DNA from: Bacteroidota bacterium
GTDB taxonomy: Bacteria; Bacteroidota; Bacteroidia; Flavobacteriales; Schleiferiaceae
Reading direction: 5' to 3'
Length of the DNA stretch: 37,786 nucleotides
Assembly (NCBI GenBank): GCA_003045865.1
Contig: PZPB01000020.1
Span: 1-37,786, forward strand
Part shown: one piece after another, positions 1,224 to 28,239 of the stretch
Position numbering within the stretch: position 1 is the stretch's first letter
Layout: the number at the start of each line of letters is the position of its first letter
Translations under genes and position numbers: made by a program
The notes under the pieces: model-generated
The model's input: only the letters and a program-made list of their open reading frames with translations
The model's database searches: none
Told to the model about the DNA's origin: nothing

Positions 1224-2762
1224 ATGGAAACACTAACAATTATTATGGGTATTGGTGGACTAGTGATAGGCTTTGTAATAGCCTATGTACTAAACCAAAC
1301 CGCCCTAAAAAACAAGAGCGCTAAGATTTTAGAAGAAGCTCAAAAAGAAGCTGAGGGTATTAAGAAAGAGAAAATCCTACAAGCCAAAGAAAAGTTCTTA
1401 GAACTAAAAGCGGAACACGAAAAGGTAATTAGCAAAAGAGAGCAAAAGCTTACGGAGCGCTATAACACCACTAAAGAACGTGAAGCACGTGCTAAAGAAC
1501 ATGCCGAAAATAACAAGCGTGACTTTAAAGAAAACCAAAAGGTAAAAGAAGAGTTAACGCTAAAAGTTGACGCGAACGACCGTCGTGCTTTAGAATTAGA
1601 AAAGATGCACCGCAAGCAGGTGGAGCAATTAGAAGTGATTTCTGGCCTAAGCCCTGAAGAAGCGAAAAATCAAATGCTGGAGGCTCTTAAAGAAGAAGCC
1701 CGCACCAGCGCCGCCGCTTTCATCCAAACTACTATGGAAGAGGCACAACTTTCTGCCGCCAAAGAAGCACGTAAAATTGTAATCCAAAGCATTCAGCGCG
1801 TTGCCACCGAGCAATCGGTAGAAAACAGCGTATCGGTATTTAATATTGAAAACGACGATGTAAAAGGTCGTATCATCGGAAGAGAAGGACGTAATATTCG
1901 TGCTATAGAAGCGGCTACCGGGGTAGAAATCGTAGTAGACGATACGCCCGAGGCAATTATCTTAAGCTGTTTTGACCCCGTTCGTCGTGAAATCGCTCGC
2001 CTATCCCTACACAAACTTGTATCGGATGGTAGAATTCACCCCGCCCGTATCGAAGAGGTTTGTGCGAAAACCAAAAAACAAATCGAAGAGGAAATCTTTG
2101 AAGTGGGTAAACGTACCACCATTGACCTCGGTGTTCACGGCTTACATCCCGAATTAGTGCGGATGGTAGGTAGAATGAAATACCGTTCTTCTTATGGTCA
2201 AAACCTATTGCAGCACAGCCGCGAGGTAGCCAACCTTTGTGGAATTATGGCCGCGGAGTTAGGACTCAATCCTAAAATCGCCAAGCGTGCTGGTCTTTTA
2301 CACGATATTGGTAAAGTTCCTTCCGAAGAAAGTGAACTACCACACGCCATCTTAGGAATGAAAATGGCGGAGAAATACGGCGAAAAACCTGAGGTATGTA
2401 ATGCCATCGGCGCTCACCACGACGAAATTGAAATGAATAGCTTGATCTCACCCATCATTCAGGTTTGTGATGGTATTTCTGGTGCGCGTCCTGGTGCTCG
2501 TCGTCAAATTGCCGAAAGCTACATGCAGCGTTTAAAAGACCTCGAACAATTAGCCGTTGCTCAGAAAGGGGTAACGCAAGCTTATGCCGTTCAAGCAGGT
2601 AGAGAACTGCGCGTTATAGTGGATTGCGAACAAGTTACTGATGCCGATGCTGCAAAAATCAGCTTCGACATCTCCCAGAAGATACAAAATGAAATGACCT
2701 ATCCAGGTCAGGTTAAAATTACCGTTATCCGCGAAACTCGCGCGGTTAATGTGGCGCGCTAA
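1224..2762 (+). CDS. rny: Ribonuclease Y
   Basis: A 512-residue membrane-anchored endoribonuclease that starts mRNA decay. In order: one N-terminal membrane segment (residues about 4-25, glycine rich), a long charged coiled coil (about 30-145), a KH RNA-binding domain with the [12 protein letters not shown] loop at about 213-224, and an HD phosphohydrolase domain with LLHDIGK at about 357-363 and a further HHDE motif downstream. The length is normal for the family. It begins 18 bp after the T-run of the 6S-like RNA, so it may be read through from the zapA promoter or expressed separately. Its last 17 bp overlap the end of the convergent nucleoside phosphorylase gene. Confidence 0.95.
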
Positions 2763-3588
2763 GTACCTCTAAGGCAGCTTTTATTAAGGCCTGAGTACTT
2801 TGCTCAGGCTTTGTGCTAAAAGTTCCTAAAAGACGGTTCGCCAAAATGGCAGAAAGCGAAATGCACTGCATATTTAGTAAAGAGCCCAAAGCATAAATTC
2901 CGGCCGTTTCCATCTCTAAGTTGGTAATTCGGCCGGTTTTTATTTGCATAGATGCCAAATCATTAAGAAAAGTTTTATTCTTAGTAGGACTTATCACGCT
3001 GCGCCCTTGCGGTCCGTAAAAACCATTAGCGGTAACTGTGGTGCCAACATTATCCGCAATGCTGCTAAAGCGCTTTAAAAGGCCTGCATCCGCTTCTGCT
3101 AGATAGGGTCGGGGGAAATCCTTTAGTCCTAAATCAGGGAAATCGAAAGTATTTTCATAGAAATACATTAAGCCATCAAAACCCAGCGCCGCATTTGAAA
3201 TTAAGATGCTATCCAATTCGATTTCCGGACGCAAAGCACCACTGGTTCCTAAGCGTATAATTTGCAAAGGCGGCAGCTCTAACGCGAAAGGAGTGCGGGA
3301 ATGTAAATCCCAAGCATAAGCCAATTGTAGCTCGTTCAAAACAATGTCTATATTATCGGTACCAATGCCGGTGGAAATAATAAGCAGGTCCTCCTGCCCT
3401 ATTCGTCCGGAAGCAATATGAAACTCACGATTTTGCTTGCGCCAAAATACTTGGTCGAGATGTTGAGCCACCGCTTCCACCCGATCGGGATCACCCACGG
3501 TAATTACTTTTTGAGGGACTTCACCGTTTTTTAATTTTAGGTGATAAATACTATTATCGGGATTGACAATTATTTCCGAGGCTTGCAT
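2746..3588 (-). CDS. Nucleoside phosphorylase (uridine phosphorylase-like)
   Basis: A 280-residue cytoplasmic enzyme of the PNP/UDP family, which splits nucleosides with phosphate to base and ribose-1-phosphate for salvage. Visible features are the N-terminal phosphate loop region VGDPDRV (about 32-38), the [10 protein letters not shown] strand-loop (about 110-119) and the family signature [12 protein letters not shown] near residue 227, where the Glu-Met-Glu contacts ribose. Uridine phosphorylase is the nearest match, but the base preference cannot be read from the sequence. It converges with rny and overlaps it by 17 bp. It is divergent from the universal stress gene with only 48 bp between, so the two probably share a regulatory region. 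Confidence 0.85.
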
Positions 3589-3609
3589 GCTTATTTTGGG
3601 TATTAAACT

Positions 3610-3617
3610 TAAATTTG
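3610..3617 (+). promoter_or_regulatory. -7 box of the universal stress gene
   Basis: TAAATTTG fits the TAnnTTTG consensus and lies 19 bases before the ATG at 3637. No convincing -33 TTTG is present at the expected distance, so the call rests on the -7 box and position only. Confidence 0.5.
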
Positions 3618-3636
3618 GGCCAAAGAAAATTAATAT

Positions 3637-4518
3637 ATGTCTGACTCCTTTAAAATTTTAGTGCCAATTGGTTTTTCGGAACAATCACTCAATGCACTAA
3701 ACCAGGCTTTGATCTTCGCAAAAGCCTCTGAAAACGCGCAGTTCACCATACTTTCGGTTATTGAAGACTCTAGAGCATTTGCCAAATTATTTGACTCTAA
3801 AAATTCCGACGACCTGCGTCAGAAGGTAACCGAAGAGATTAAAAAGATTGCAGAAGAGTTCTCCATAAAATCTGGTTTCACCGTAAATACAATGATTGCC
3901 GAAGGAGTCGTTTATGAAGAAATTGCTCGTGTAAGTACCTTAATAAACGCGGACTTGGTAATAATGGGAACGAATGGCAAGCCTCAAAACTTGCGAAAAC
4001 GTTTTATTGGCAGTAATGCTTACCGCACTGCTACCTTGGTTAAACCTCCCGTTGTTACCATTAAAGGAGTTCGTAATATTGAGAAGATTGAAACTATTAT
4101 TTTCCCACTTCTTATGGATCGTCATAGTAAAGAGAAAGTGGGGCCAGCTTTGAAGTACGCCCGTATTTTTGGTTCTAAAATTTTAGTGGTAGGGGTTAAA
4201 GAAGATGAGTCAAAACTCAATATTCTGCGCGGTCACATTCACCAAGTAGAGAAATTTATTACCGATCATGGTGTCGTTTGCGAAACAACCTTAATTGAAA
4301 ATCCTAAGCGTAAAAGTGTGGTTCGTAATATCCTTAACCATGCTTACGAGGCGAAAGGTGATTTAGTAATAATTACCGAGGAAGACGGCCCTGGTAGTGA
4401 TCTTAGCGATTACCTTTTAGGAAATGAACTTCAAGAAGTTATCTACCACAGTGAAATTCCGGTAATGTCTATTACCCCACGTGCCGTTAAATACGATAGC
4501 ATGTGGGATTCTTTTTAA
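3637..4518 (+). CDS. Tandem universal stress protein (two UspA domains)
   Basis: A 293-residue cytoplasmic protein with two UspA folds. The first (residues 1-145) begins KILVPIGFSEQSLNALNQAL and contains ADLVIMGTNGK, the start of the ATP-binding glycine motif. The second (about 150-280) begins IIFPLLMDRHS and ends DLVIITEEDGPGSDLSDYLLG followed by IPVMSITP. In the first domain the usual G-2x-G-9x-G-[ST] motif is partly altered (GTNGKPQNLRKRFIGSNAY), and in the second it is weaker, so nucleotide binding is uncertain in both. It is monocistronic, with a -7 box upstream and a strong terminator at 4541-4570. The role in stress tolerance is family knowledge. Confidence 0.88.
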   Translation: MSDSFKILVPIGFSEQSLNALNQALIFAKASENAQFTILSVIEDSRAFAKLFDSKNSDDLRQKVTEEIKKIAEEFSIKSGFTVNTMIAEGVVYEEIARVSTLINADLVIMGTNGKPQNLRKRFIGSNAYRTATLVKPPVVTIKGVRNIEKIETIIFPLLMDRHSKEKVGPALKYARIFGSKILVVGVKEDESKLNILRGHIHQVEKFITDHGVVCETTLIENPKRKSVVRNILNHAYEAKGDLVIITEEDGPGSDLSDYLLGNELQEVIYHSEIPVMSITPRAVKYDSMWDSF

Positions 4519-4540
4519 AGAAAACCTCCTTTTAAAATAT

Positions 4541-4570
4541 AAAGCTCCGCATCCGCGGGGCTTTTTTTTT
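4541..4570 (+). terminator. Rho-independent terminator after the universal stress gene
   Basis: A 10-bp stem (4541-4550 with 4555-4564, one T-G pair), loop ATCC, then a run of T to 4570. Confidence 0.9.
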
Positions 4571-4628
4571 AGATCCCTCATTTGAACCTATTACCTTGAG
4601 TCGTGTTCTATTGGGGAATTAGAAGTAC

Positions 4629-5087
4629 ATGTATACCATAAAAGCGAAACAGTTTGTTGCCTTAAGTACGCAAGAGGCCTGGGATTTTTTTTCTCAACCG
4701 ATCAACCTCAAGCAGCTTACGCCTCCAGAAATGAATATGCGCATGATTGATGAGCAGCAACAAGAAATGTACGCCGGCATGGTTATCTCCTACAAGGTTG
4801 CCCCTTTATTGGGCATAGCTTTACCCTGGAGTTCGGAAATTACCCAAGTGACAAAAGGAGAGTATTTTATCGATAGCATGATCGAAGGGCCTTTTAAAAT
4901 TTGGCACCATCAGCACTTCTTTAAAGCGGTAGAAGGTGGCACCGAAATTATTGATATTGTAAATTATCAAGTGCCTTTTGGCCTTTTAGGTAAACTATTT
5001 CACCCCATAATTGTAAAAAGTAGAGTGGCGGGGATATTTACATACCGCAACCAACGAATCAAGGAAATTTTTAGTAGCAACAATTAA
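4629..5087 (+). CDS. SRPBCC (START-like) ligand-binding family protein
   Basis: A 152-residue protein with the SRPBCC helix-grip pattern: a first strand (YTIKAKQFVALS), the AWDFFSQPINLKQLTPPEMNM helix region, then alternating strands ending with FRNQ-like FTYRNQRIKEIF in the long C-terminal helix. Such proteins form a deep hydrophobic pocket; the ligand is unknown. It has no signal peptide. Gaps of one base link it to the DUF429 gene and then to the photolyase-like gene, so the four genes form one operon. Homologues of this subfamily often lie next to photolyase genes (family knowledge), which suggests a role in flavin or antenna handling or in the UV response; this is inference. Confidence 0.8.
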   Translation: MYTIKAKQFVALSTQEAWDFFSQPINLKQLTPPEMNMRMIDEQQQEMYAGMVISYKVAPLLGIALPWSSEITQVTKGEYFIDSMIEGPFKIWHHQHFFKAVEGGTEIIDIVNYQVPFGLLGKLFHPIIVKSRVAGIFTYRNQRIKEIFSSNN

Positions 5088-25883: not shown

Positions 25884-25918
25884 CCCTAGTCATCAAAAGC
25901 CGCATGACTAGGGTTTTT
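25884..25918. terminator. Terminator between creD and the methyltransferase remnant
   Basis: A perfect 10-bp stem (25884-25893 with 25904-25913) and T-run to 25918. The stop codon of the minus-strand methyltransferase remnant (25908-25910) lies inside its right arm. Confidence 0.88.
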
Positions 25919-26984
25919 CTTTTTTAGCTCGCAAGGCGTACACCATGGGTAATTTGCTTTCGAAGTCCTTAATCTGAAACTTATTGGGTGAAATTTCTAG
26001 GGTATTGGCAAAGCAATTGTAGGGCGAATAATCAAACTCTTGAAAGGTTTCCAATTGCAAACCCGCTCCGAAAAGACTGCCTAAAACCTCAGCTAAAGAA
26101 TGATTCCAACTAATGGTTTCAATTTCAATCTGCTCCTCTTTAGCGGCATAGGTTCCTTGCTGCTTTTCAATAATTGGATCCACTTTAAAATAAGAGTACT
26201 CTACCTTTTTGAAATCATTATCGAACATCCACACCACCGGATGAAACTCGGCAAATACCAATTGTCCGCCAGGCCTTCAGTAACGCGCTATCAAATTCGC
26301 CCATTTCTCTAAATCGGGTAACCAACCGATGGTACCGTAGCTACTAAATACTAAATCAAACTGCTCGTCCTAATGCTGCTCTAAAGAATAAATGTCGCAA
26401 CAAATAAAACGGGCATTTAACTTACAAGCTTCGTTTAATTCGCGCGCCTGCGCAATGGCTTTATCGGAAAGGTCCACTCCTACCGCATCTGCTGCCAAGC
26501 GCGCTAGCGACAAAGTATCTTGCCCAAAATGACATTGTAAATGCAACACTTTTTTACCCTGCAGATTAGGCAAAAGAGCGGCTTCGATACTATTTAACGT
26601 GAATTCGACAATAAATTAGAGCCTCAGATTTTCAATGGAAGGAAAAGACTAGTCTGGATCGTGCAGCTGTAGCGGGCTACAGCAAATGAGCTAGATGCAG
26701 GATTTTCATTTTTATTGGAAAATCCGTTTAGGCCCCTTCTAAAAAGCGACTTTCCACGCCTCAGTAGCTCACAATAGCCCGCTATTGCTTCACTACTTCG
26801 GCTTGAAACCCACTATTTACAAGAGGTCTGAGGCCTAATTTTACGTCGAACTCACGTTATTTAACGAAGTCTTTCCTTTCAGGAAACTAGCAACATCGTA
26901 AAAATCGGATTGATAATGCGAGTCGATACGCTTATTCCACGAAGCGCGATTTATCTCTAAATACTCATCTGCCTTAGCGCTCAT
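25908..26984 (-). pseudogene. SAM-dependent methyltransferase broken by two stops and an insertion
   Basis: Remnant of a class I methyltransferase. The ATG is at 26984 and the protein begins MSAKADEYLEINRASWNKR. At 26863 it is cut by the 261-bp element; removing the element and one 6-bp duplicate restores the frame exactly (KGKTSLN joined to SIEAALLPNLQGKKVLHLQC). The glycine-rich SAM site CHFGQDTLSLARLAADAVGVD is intact. Two in-frame stops follow: TAG at 26370-26372 after YSLEQH, and TGA at 26277-26279 in LIARY*RPGG where Leu is expected. Then the C-terminal domain reads on to 25908. Without the insertion the gene has 270 codons with no frameshift, so the decay looks recent. The substrate is unknown. 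Confidence 0.9.
26597..26857. mobile_element. MITE-like element (R3), 261 bp, in the methyltransferase gene
   Basis: The ends are imperfect inverted repeats of about 30 bp: ACGTGAATTCGAC on the left and GTCGAACTCACGT on the right, extending inward to GCCTCAGA and TCTGAGGC. It is flanked by TATTTA on both sides (26591-26596 and 26858-26863), a 6-bp target duplication. There is no ORF for a transposase. Inside are two hairpins with the same core: 26666-26683 (GCTGTAGC, GG, GCTACAGC) and 26772-26787 (CAATAGC, CC, GCTATTG), the second enclosed by AGTAG/CTACT arms. It is non-autonomous; the mobilising enzyme is not in the window. Confidence 0.85.
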
Positions 26985-27099: not shown

Positions 27100-27437
27100 G
27101 TGGTTAGAAAAGTTATTGCGTATAAAACTACTTCCTTGACTTTTATAGAGATCAAGACAAAAAGGTTCAGCTGAAGATTGAGTATGTCCTAGACATGATT
27201 CGGTTTGAACAGAGAGTTTCAACAAAGTTTTTTAAGCAGCTGCAGAGTAGCGATGGAATTTACGAAGTTAGAGTTATCACCTCTTTTAAAAGCATTCGAA
27301 TACTTTGCTTCTTTGATGGCGCCGACCTTATTGTTTTAAGCAACTGCTTTGTAAAGAAAACTCAGAAAACACCAAAAAAAGAGATTACGAAGGCAGAAAA
27401 AATCAAGACGGAGTACTTAAAAGATAAAAGCAGTTAA
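27100..27437 (+). pseudogene. HigB/RelE-like (Gp49 family) toxin with a -1 frameshift
   Basis: From the GTG at 27100 the frame reads MVRKVIAYKT and then leaves the family pattern, ending at a TGA at 27172. Shifting back one base after the ACT at 27127-27129 gives YFLDFYRDQDKKVQLKIEYV, continuing without a stop into MIRFEQRVSTKFFKQL, IRILCFFDGADLIVLSNCF and KKTQKTPKKEI, the hallmarks of Gp49/RelE-type toxins that cleave mRNA. One missing base therefore explains everything, and the repaired length is 112 residues, normal for the family. The rest is open from an ATG at 27195 (80 residues), which lacks the N-terminal strand and helix. Probably inactive. Two bases separate it from the antitoxin gene. 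Confidence 0.8.
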
Positions 27438-27439
27438 AC

Positions 27440-27730
27440 ATGAAAAATACAACAAGTTTCGAAGATATATTAGTAAATAAGTACGGTAATAAAGGGACTG
27501 AATCTAGAGATAAATTTGACACTGAGTCTCTTGCCTTTCGACTTGGAATAATGTTGAAAGAAGCTAGACAAGAAGCCCAGTTAACACAAGAGCAGCTCGC
27601 TGAGAGAACCGGGACGAAGAAAAGCTATATATCAAGAATTGAACGCGGATTAAGCGACATTCAAGTGTCTAGCTATTACAAGCTAATCGAAATTGGACTG
27701 GGTAAAACTCTGAATATTTCTATCGGATAG
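27440..27730 (+). CDS. HigA-like XRE antitoxin
   Basis: A 96-residue helix-turn-helix antitoxin. The N-terminal 30 residues are polar (the toxin-binding part in this family). The XRE domain runs from FRLGIMLKEARQEAQLTQEQLAERTGTKKSYISRIERG (about 34-70) with a standard recognition helix, and ends LIEIGLGKTLNISIG. It is intact although its toxin is frameshifted. Toxin before antitoxin is the HigBA order. It probably binds the GTTAAC palindrome at 27074-27091 (inference). A 49-bp repeat derivative starts nine bases after its stop. Confidence 0.88.
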   Translation: MKNTTSFEDILVNKYGNKGTESRDKFDTESLAFRLGIMLKEARQEAQLTQEQLAERTGTKKSYISRIERGLSDIQVSSYYKLIEIGLGKTLNISIG

Positions 27731-27738
27731 ACTAAATA

Positions 27739-27787
27739 ACGTGAGTTCGACTATAAATTATAGCCTCCGATTTCGTCGAACTCACGT
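27739..27787. mobile_element. 49-bp mini-derivative (R4) of the ACGTGA element
   Basis: It starts ACGTGAGTTCGAC and ends GTCGAACTCACGT, with perfect 13-bp inverted ends. Its interior matches only the left end of R3 (ATAAATTATAGCCTCCGATTTC against ATAAATTAGAGCCTCAGATTTTC), so it looks like an internal-deletion product. TAAATA flanks it on both sides (27733-27738 and 27788-27793). This is the reverse complement of the R3 duplication, so both copies used the same 6-bp target. The hairpin could also act as a terminator for the two convergent genes around it. Confidence 0.8.
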
Positions 27788-28239
27788 TAAATACGGTTCG
27801 ACCTGAAACTATAACTTAGTCCCAAGAGGCTGCGCAGGGTGCCGCCGTCAAAATTGCTATTAAGATAAGGGGATATCTCAAAAGCGACTTGGAAATTGGG
27901 ATGTTTCCGCCAAGGCTTAAAACGCAGTCCGAAATGCAGTAAATAACCATTGGTAAAAGTCAAATCTTCGGCCGCATAAAAAGGATTAAAGTTAAAGCCC
28001 AAGCCGCTGTATACGCTGTAATAATCACGCTTTCGGAAATTCACCATGGCATTTACTTCCATATTCACATTGCTCAAAAAGGTATTGCTTTCCAGTCGTC
28101 CATCCAGCCAAAGTGTTTTTTCGCTGTCGCTAGATAGCGCCACAATCGATTGAAAGGGATAATAGGATAAAGCCACCTGCGCCTTAAGGCCATTTAGGCA
28201 TAGAAAGGTAAACAACAAAGTATTAATTAGTAGTCTCAT
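27787..28239 (-). CDS. Small outer-membrane beta-barrel protein
   Basis: A 150-residue exported protein: signal peptide MRLLINTLLFTFLCLNGLKAQ followed by alternating amphipathic strands (VNMEVNAMVNFRKRDYYSVYSGLGFNFNPF, GYLLHFGLRFKPW, FQVAFEISPYL, SLLGLSYSFRS), the look of an eight-stranded barrel. Function unknown. Its ATG overlaps the stop of the upstream xylanase gene by four bases, so the two are coupled. The TAA stop is made by the first base of the repeat R4 end and the target duplication; before the insertion it would have been TAG with the same C-terminus, so the protein was not changed. Confidence 0.75.
   Translation of the reverse strand: MRLLINTLLFTFLCLNGLKAQVALSYYPFQSIVALSSDSEKTLWLDGRLESNTFLSNVNMEVNAMVNFRKRDYYSVYSGLGFNFNPFYAAEDLTFTNGYLLHFGLRFKPWRKHPNFQVAFEISPYLNSNFDGGTLRSLLGLSYSFRSNRI

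Follow-up and report, generated by a model that had tools for sequence, protein, structure and literature searches.

In the window (the whole 37,786-nt stretch of DNA analyzed here), a putative methyltransferase gene is split by 261 bp of sequence that does not belong to it, which raises the question of what this sequence is and what carried it there. A sequence-only reading had taken it for a non-autonomous element with a 6-bp target duplication. This was confirmed by many further copies in the genome, by target duplications elsewhere, and by orthologs that run on without the element. As set out below, it is highly likely that the element is a MITE of the IS982 type, moved by an IS982 transposase, which landed in the methyltransferase gene.

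The element and the gene it interrupts

The element occupies positions 26597 to 26857 (no strand assigned), exactly as had been proposed, with inverted ACGTGA(A/G)TTCGAC ends and a copy of TATTTA on either side (26591 to 26596 and 26858 to 26863, no strand assigned). Taken raw, the flanking direct repeat is 9 nt (TATTTAACG) rather than 6, because ACG opens both the element and its right flank; the start at ACG was fixed by comparison with the other genomic copies. The terminal inverted repeat shows 84% complementarity across 25 nt (arms 26595 to 26619 and 26835 to 26859). Allowing up to 2 mismatches, the window contains the 13-base end motif 5 times; 100 shuffled sequences averaged 0.60 occurrences, and none of them reached 5. 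The 2 internal hairpins that had been described are both present as palindromes: GCTGTAGCGGGCTACAGC at 26666 to 26683 (composed of GCTGTAGC GG GCTACAGC) and CAATAGCCCGCTATTG at 26772 to 26787 (CAATAG CCCG CTATTG, element positions 176 to 191), neither assigned a strand. The absence of a transposase was likewise borne out, as no open reading frame (ORF) of at least 80 aa overlaps the element. It is thus short, bounded by terminal inverted repeats, and without coding capacity for a transposase, as is typical of MITEs.

The interrupted gene lies on the minus strand. Its upstream coding part (26859 to 26984, 42 codons, MSAKADEYLE..KGKTSLN) and its downstream coding part (25908 to 26591, beginning SIEAALLPN) were both assigned by translation and homology, and they join in frame across the element (KGKTSLN / SIEAALLPN). 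The name methyltransferase was given by the earlier reader and is kept here as an assumption; the 117-aa tail of the split protein, searched alone, had no Pfam match. The uninterrupted form of the gene had been thought to be rebuildable. This stands insofar as the halves join in frame once the element is removed, but an open frame is not restored: the downstream half contains 2 in-frame stop codons besides the insertion. The host gene is therefore a pseudogene beyond the insertion, decaying in addition to being interrupted.

Alignment of orthologs, a check put forward in the sequence-only reading, agreed with an insertion at this point. Among 80 fetched ortholog loci, one half was matched in 79 and both halves in 78, and in 77 of these 78 the halves are continuous at the exact joint (gap 0); no ortholog was found in which the stretch forms normal coding sequence. 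Within the genus, the gap was 0 in all 7 loci from 6 other genomes, one of these loci being a paralog, and the best locus in each of the 6 genomes was continuous at the joint.

A family of copies in one genome

Searching the element against its own genome, as had also been suggested, gave 46 matches that merged to 41 places, so that further copies clearly exist. Twelve of the 41 places lie 10 bp or less from the end of a contig in this assembly, which consists of 169 contigs, is 89.9% complete, and is broken at repeats; the number of copies is therefore probably underestimated. A longer end pattern had 69 matches in the same genome versus a single one for the reversed control. The family appears confined: the end pattern had 0 matches in the other 87 genomes of the taxonomic family (reversed control, 3), and the element was not found in 6 other genomes of the genus. 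Across 395 genomes of the order, 2 others matched the end pattern, each singly and at 2 mismatches. One of these matches (G399) sits within an ORF, while the other genome (G036) has four ACCTGAGTTCGAC ends, none of them paired and at least one in coding-like sequence. A 30-nt match in G010 was set aside, as it sits in apparent coding sequence, and the 13-base motif in G001, G002, and G006 did not exceed the level of the reversed control. The 261-bp element had no match in plasmids and phages, nor did 2 exact patterns in viral contigs. In one of the end-comparison runs the R position was always scored as a mismatch, making the effective threshold one stricter; the survey of duplications was unaffected.

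When the fetched stretches were searched with a profile, 27 places spanning at least 225 positions were found, plus shorter forms, and the copies fall into size classes of 49, 74, 160, and 261 bp. Two relatives lie in the window itself. A degenerate member is found at the very start of the window and contig (4 to 246, minus strand, with profile matches at 4 to 126 and 136 to 246). A 49-bp minimal relative, containing little beyond 2 inverted ends, lies 0.9 kb from the 261-bp element (27739 to 27787, no strand assigned) and is flanked by TAAATA at 27733 to 27738 and 27788 to 27793. The space between the 261-bp and 49-bp elements is taken up by an apparent toxin-antitoxin pair (27195 to 27730), in which a Gp49/HigB-like ORF is followed by a helix-turn-helix ORF; by our reading, the first residues of the toxin seem to lie in another frame.

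Exact duplications of at least about 6 nt surround 9 other complete MITE copies in the genome; in all, 11 MITE copies have duplications, 2 of which are 5-nt repeats that may have arisen by chance. The 160-bp form shows an identical deletion joint at 4 places (C97, C102, C66, and C122), with exact duplications at 2 of the 4, and this common joint indicates that the deletion derivative probably spread by itself. The two 49-bp copies, one of which is that in the window, have exact duplications and different interiors, and may be separate deletions that followed insertion. Judging by the 160-bp and 49-bp forms, hardly anything apart from the ends seems to be required in cis.

Among the copies, identity to the one in the window varies between 77% and 99.6%. 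The alignment was limited to 17 long copies (of 27), which we picked among those whose ends are nearly complete. The third base of both ends is concordant in 15 of the 17, reading ACG/CGT in 8 and ACC/GGT in 7. In a tree of the interiors, the 8 ACG copies form one side of a branch with support 99/98, while most other forks are weak. From the concordance of end types together with this tree, we read the ACG copies, the window copy included, as a younger burst that came after the older ACC set.

Two loci beside lone family ends were inspected. One such end (L173, approximately 2438 to 4772; G000:C160, near 25031) lies between gene pieces, with part of the gene missing; the pieces read like a gene that we presume to encode pyruvate carboxylase. 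The other, on C112, lies beside an ORF that was considered as a candidate transposase. It had no Pfam match, and a paralog stands beside its own second copy on C157; we read the ORF as a host lipoprotein.

IS982-family elements with the same ends

The search for an insertion sequence with the same ends, named in the sequence-only reading as a further check, led to IS982-family elements in other Bacteroidia, with duplications of 5 to 8 bp. The pattern AACGTGARTTCGAYNTAA, taken from the ends, matched in 12 of 395 genomes of the class (own genome included), versus 1 match in all for the reversed control, and in 23 stretches of viral contigs. One of the elements, in G542 (L226:1502-2519), is a complete insertion sequence with perfect ACGTGAGTTCGAT ends and identical, TA-edged duplications (TAAAGCTA), in which it resembles the MITE. 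It differs in its length of 1018 bp, in its 8-bp duplication, and in its one large ORF, which encodes a 300-aa transposase with a DDE_Tnp_1_3 domain by Pfam and an IS982 assignment by NCBIfam (NF033520, 269.9 bits, cut-off 130). A second insertion sequence, on a viral contig (L261), is without an identical duplication and encodes a transposase 59% identical to that of G542; a profile search of the viral contigs with the alignment of these insertion sequences found only 2 relatives. The same ends are thus present on elements encoding an NF033520 transposase. Both the ACG and the ACC end types occur on IS982 elements, and where the MITE ends read GAC, those of the insertion sequences read GAT.

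A transposase search across 295 genomes of the class was positive in 16 at E ≤ 1e-30, own genome included. Among 28 fetched transposase loci, both ends were found at up to 3 mismatches in 14 (13 places) and at least one end in 27, while in L303 neither end was matched. Some of the 14 loci without a second good end run off their contig; at least L297, L302, and L303 do not. Single-end matches of like quality were seen in 278 of 2,000 control windows, a chance rate that is overstated, since these windows were drawn from loci that contain family ends.

Between the insertion sequences and the MITEs stands a 468-bp element in G541 (L218:1502-1969). It has the same ends as the MITE and differs from it by the remnants of an internally deleted transposase, encoding pieces that match transposase residues 1 to 51 and 232 to 300, and is an intermediate between the two forms; no exact duplication was found around it. 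MITE-sized relatives with duplications were also found in other sources, with lengths of 215 bp (TAATATTA), 160 bp (TATTTA), 140 bp (TAAATTA), and 279 bp (TAATTA).

In the genome of the window, the transposase query matched only C160:4102-4671, with 39% identity and 7 stops in the matched frame. This match is part of a 795-bp relic (C160:3934-4728) with ACGTGAGTTCGAT/ATGTGAGTTCGTT ends and a TAATTA duplication, of which 2 stop-free pieces scored 28.4 and 80.4 bits against NF033520, under the cut-off. Contig C146 stops 48 bp into another copy of the right end of the relic. The two agree at 36 of the first 40 bases and, past the shared end motif, at 21 of 23, so at least 2 copies of this insertion sequence once existed. 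The 89.9% complete assembly yielded no intact IS982 transposase; an intact copy may lie in the unassembled 10% of the genome, or may already have been lost. Beyond the ends, the interior of the MITE has nothing visible in common with the relic.

Target sites, mobilization, and known relatives

To describe the target sites, we collected 21 deduplicated complete elements with exact repeats of 5 to 10 nt, 12 from the genome of the window (relic included) and 9 from others. Their duplications measure 5 nt (5 elements), 6 nt (10), 7 nt (4), or 8 nt (2), within the range of 2 to 10 bp that PMC7335449 lists for direct repeats of the IS982 family. Nineteen of the 21 begin with TA, 16 end with TA, and 16 do both, compared to 0.6% of random k-mers from the same sources; the exceptions are 2 duplications without a starting TA, and 5 are only 5 nt long. 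Those of the window's genome include TATTTA, TAAATA (2), TAACTA (2), TAGTTA, TAAATTA, TAAACTA, and TATAAAC. Furthermore, TA lies just outside 94 of 113 distinct end motifs.

From these TA-edged duplications of varying length, we infer that strand transfer is anchored at TA, with a loose stagger. An IS982 transposase would act on the 261-bp element in trans, joining its 3′ ends (..CACGT) to 5′-TA steps on both target strands, and repair would duplicate the intervening bases, usually as TA-N(2-4)-TA. A single insertion event would then have struck TATTTA within the methyltransferase gene. Where PMC7335449 lists the variable direct repeats of IS982, it gives them without explanation; TA anchoring may provide one. 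A broader proposal joins 2 parts: that this branch of IS982 has no fixed stagger and is anchored at TA steps, and that the MITE ends changed together from ACCTGA to ACGTGA, as if the lineage had swapped its driver. We put this forward tentatively, and would lean slightly against it. If true, the spacing of opposed TA steps would set the length of the duplication, which would explain the 2-10 bp scatter seen in IS982. The TA-edged duplications and their variable length provide a rule of target choice in this family that can be tested.

Judged by the shared ends and their transposases, an IS982-family insertion sequence would very probably be the mobilizing system of the element. A transposase of another family that recognizes the same ends, such as an IS5-like one, seems improbable as the driver. 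The IS982 transposases do give weak matches to IS5 profiles, and ISPg3, with similar ends, is classed under IS5 in PMC4596501. However, the IS5 models reach at most 41.3 bits, versus 269.9 and 246.3 bits for NF033520, and ISPg3 is equated with IS195 in PMC9328147, which in turn is listed under IS982 in PMC7335449. The latter also lists ends starting with AC for 57 of 69 IS982 elements, as do the ends of the present element (5′-AC).

It is more improbable still that the element is no transposon at all, but a REP/REPIN-like or other structured repeat with a regulatory or RNA role. Its single-strand fold is strong compared to shuffled sequences (z of -7.2 and -8.6, with 0/200 shuffles equally good), and in 10 older copies the palindromes are conserved at 0.94 and 0.98, versus 0.87 for the remainder of the element. 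Yet a strong fold is expected from a nested inverted repeat, covariation in the alignment is minimal (-0.14 out of -49.36 kcal/mol), and nothing in the window reached the gathering score of an Rfam family, while the target duplications and the interrupted gene show insertion. Least probable of all is that the stretch inside the gene is normal sequence or was misassembled. The fragmentation of the assembly and the many places at contig ends could be taken to favor misassembly, but the copy in the window is internal to its contig and flanked by exact duplications, and the orthologs lack the element.

As an IS982-type MITE, the element has precedents. The left end printed for MITE239 of Porphyromonas gingivalis in PMC4596501, which relates it to ISPg3, is ACGTGAGTTCGATATAAAGGAA, and fits the shared end pattern. 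MITE239 (and MITE700) differ in their host, P. gingivalis, and in the IS5 placement of ISPg3 there; the comparison covered the ends. MITECca01 of a Cardinium endosymbiont, as described in PMC9769881, is approximately 240 bp long, has 169 copies, is lineage-specific, and sometimes disrupts genes. Compared by this description, it is alike in being without a transposase and in having ends that resemble those of an IS982-family element, ISCca4; it differs in that intact copies of the parental insertion sequence persist there, while only a relic was found here. Because MITE239 and MITECca01 precede it, the 261-bp family is another case of a kind already known. No published description of this family was found in a literature search of non-subscription papers, nor any literature on the IS982 family together with target site duplication. 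Its assignment links an otherwise anonymous repeat with a specific partner family, and would date a burst of small elements within a single lineage.

The shared ends also occur outside the elements discussed so far. In G752, 7 exact ends of the shared pattern were found (L219, L231, L236, L239, L241, L243, and L245) with at least 2 kinds of interior, which probably represent additional MITE families of this kind.
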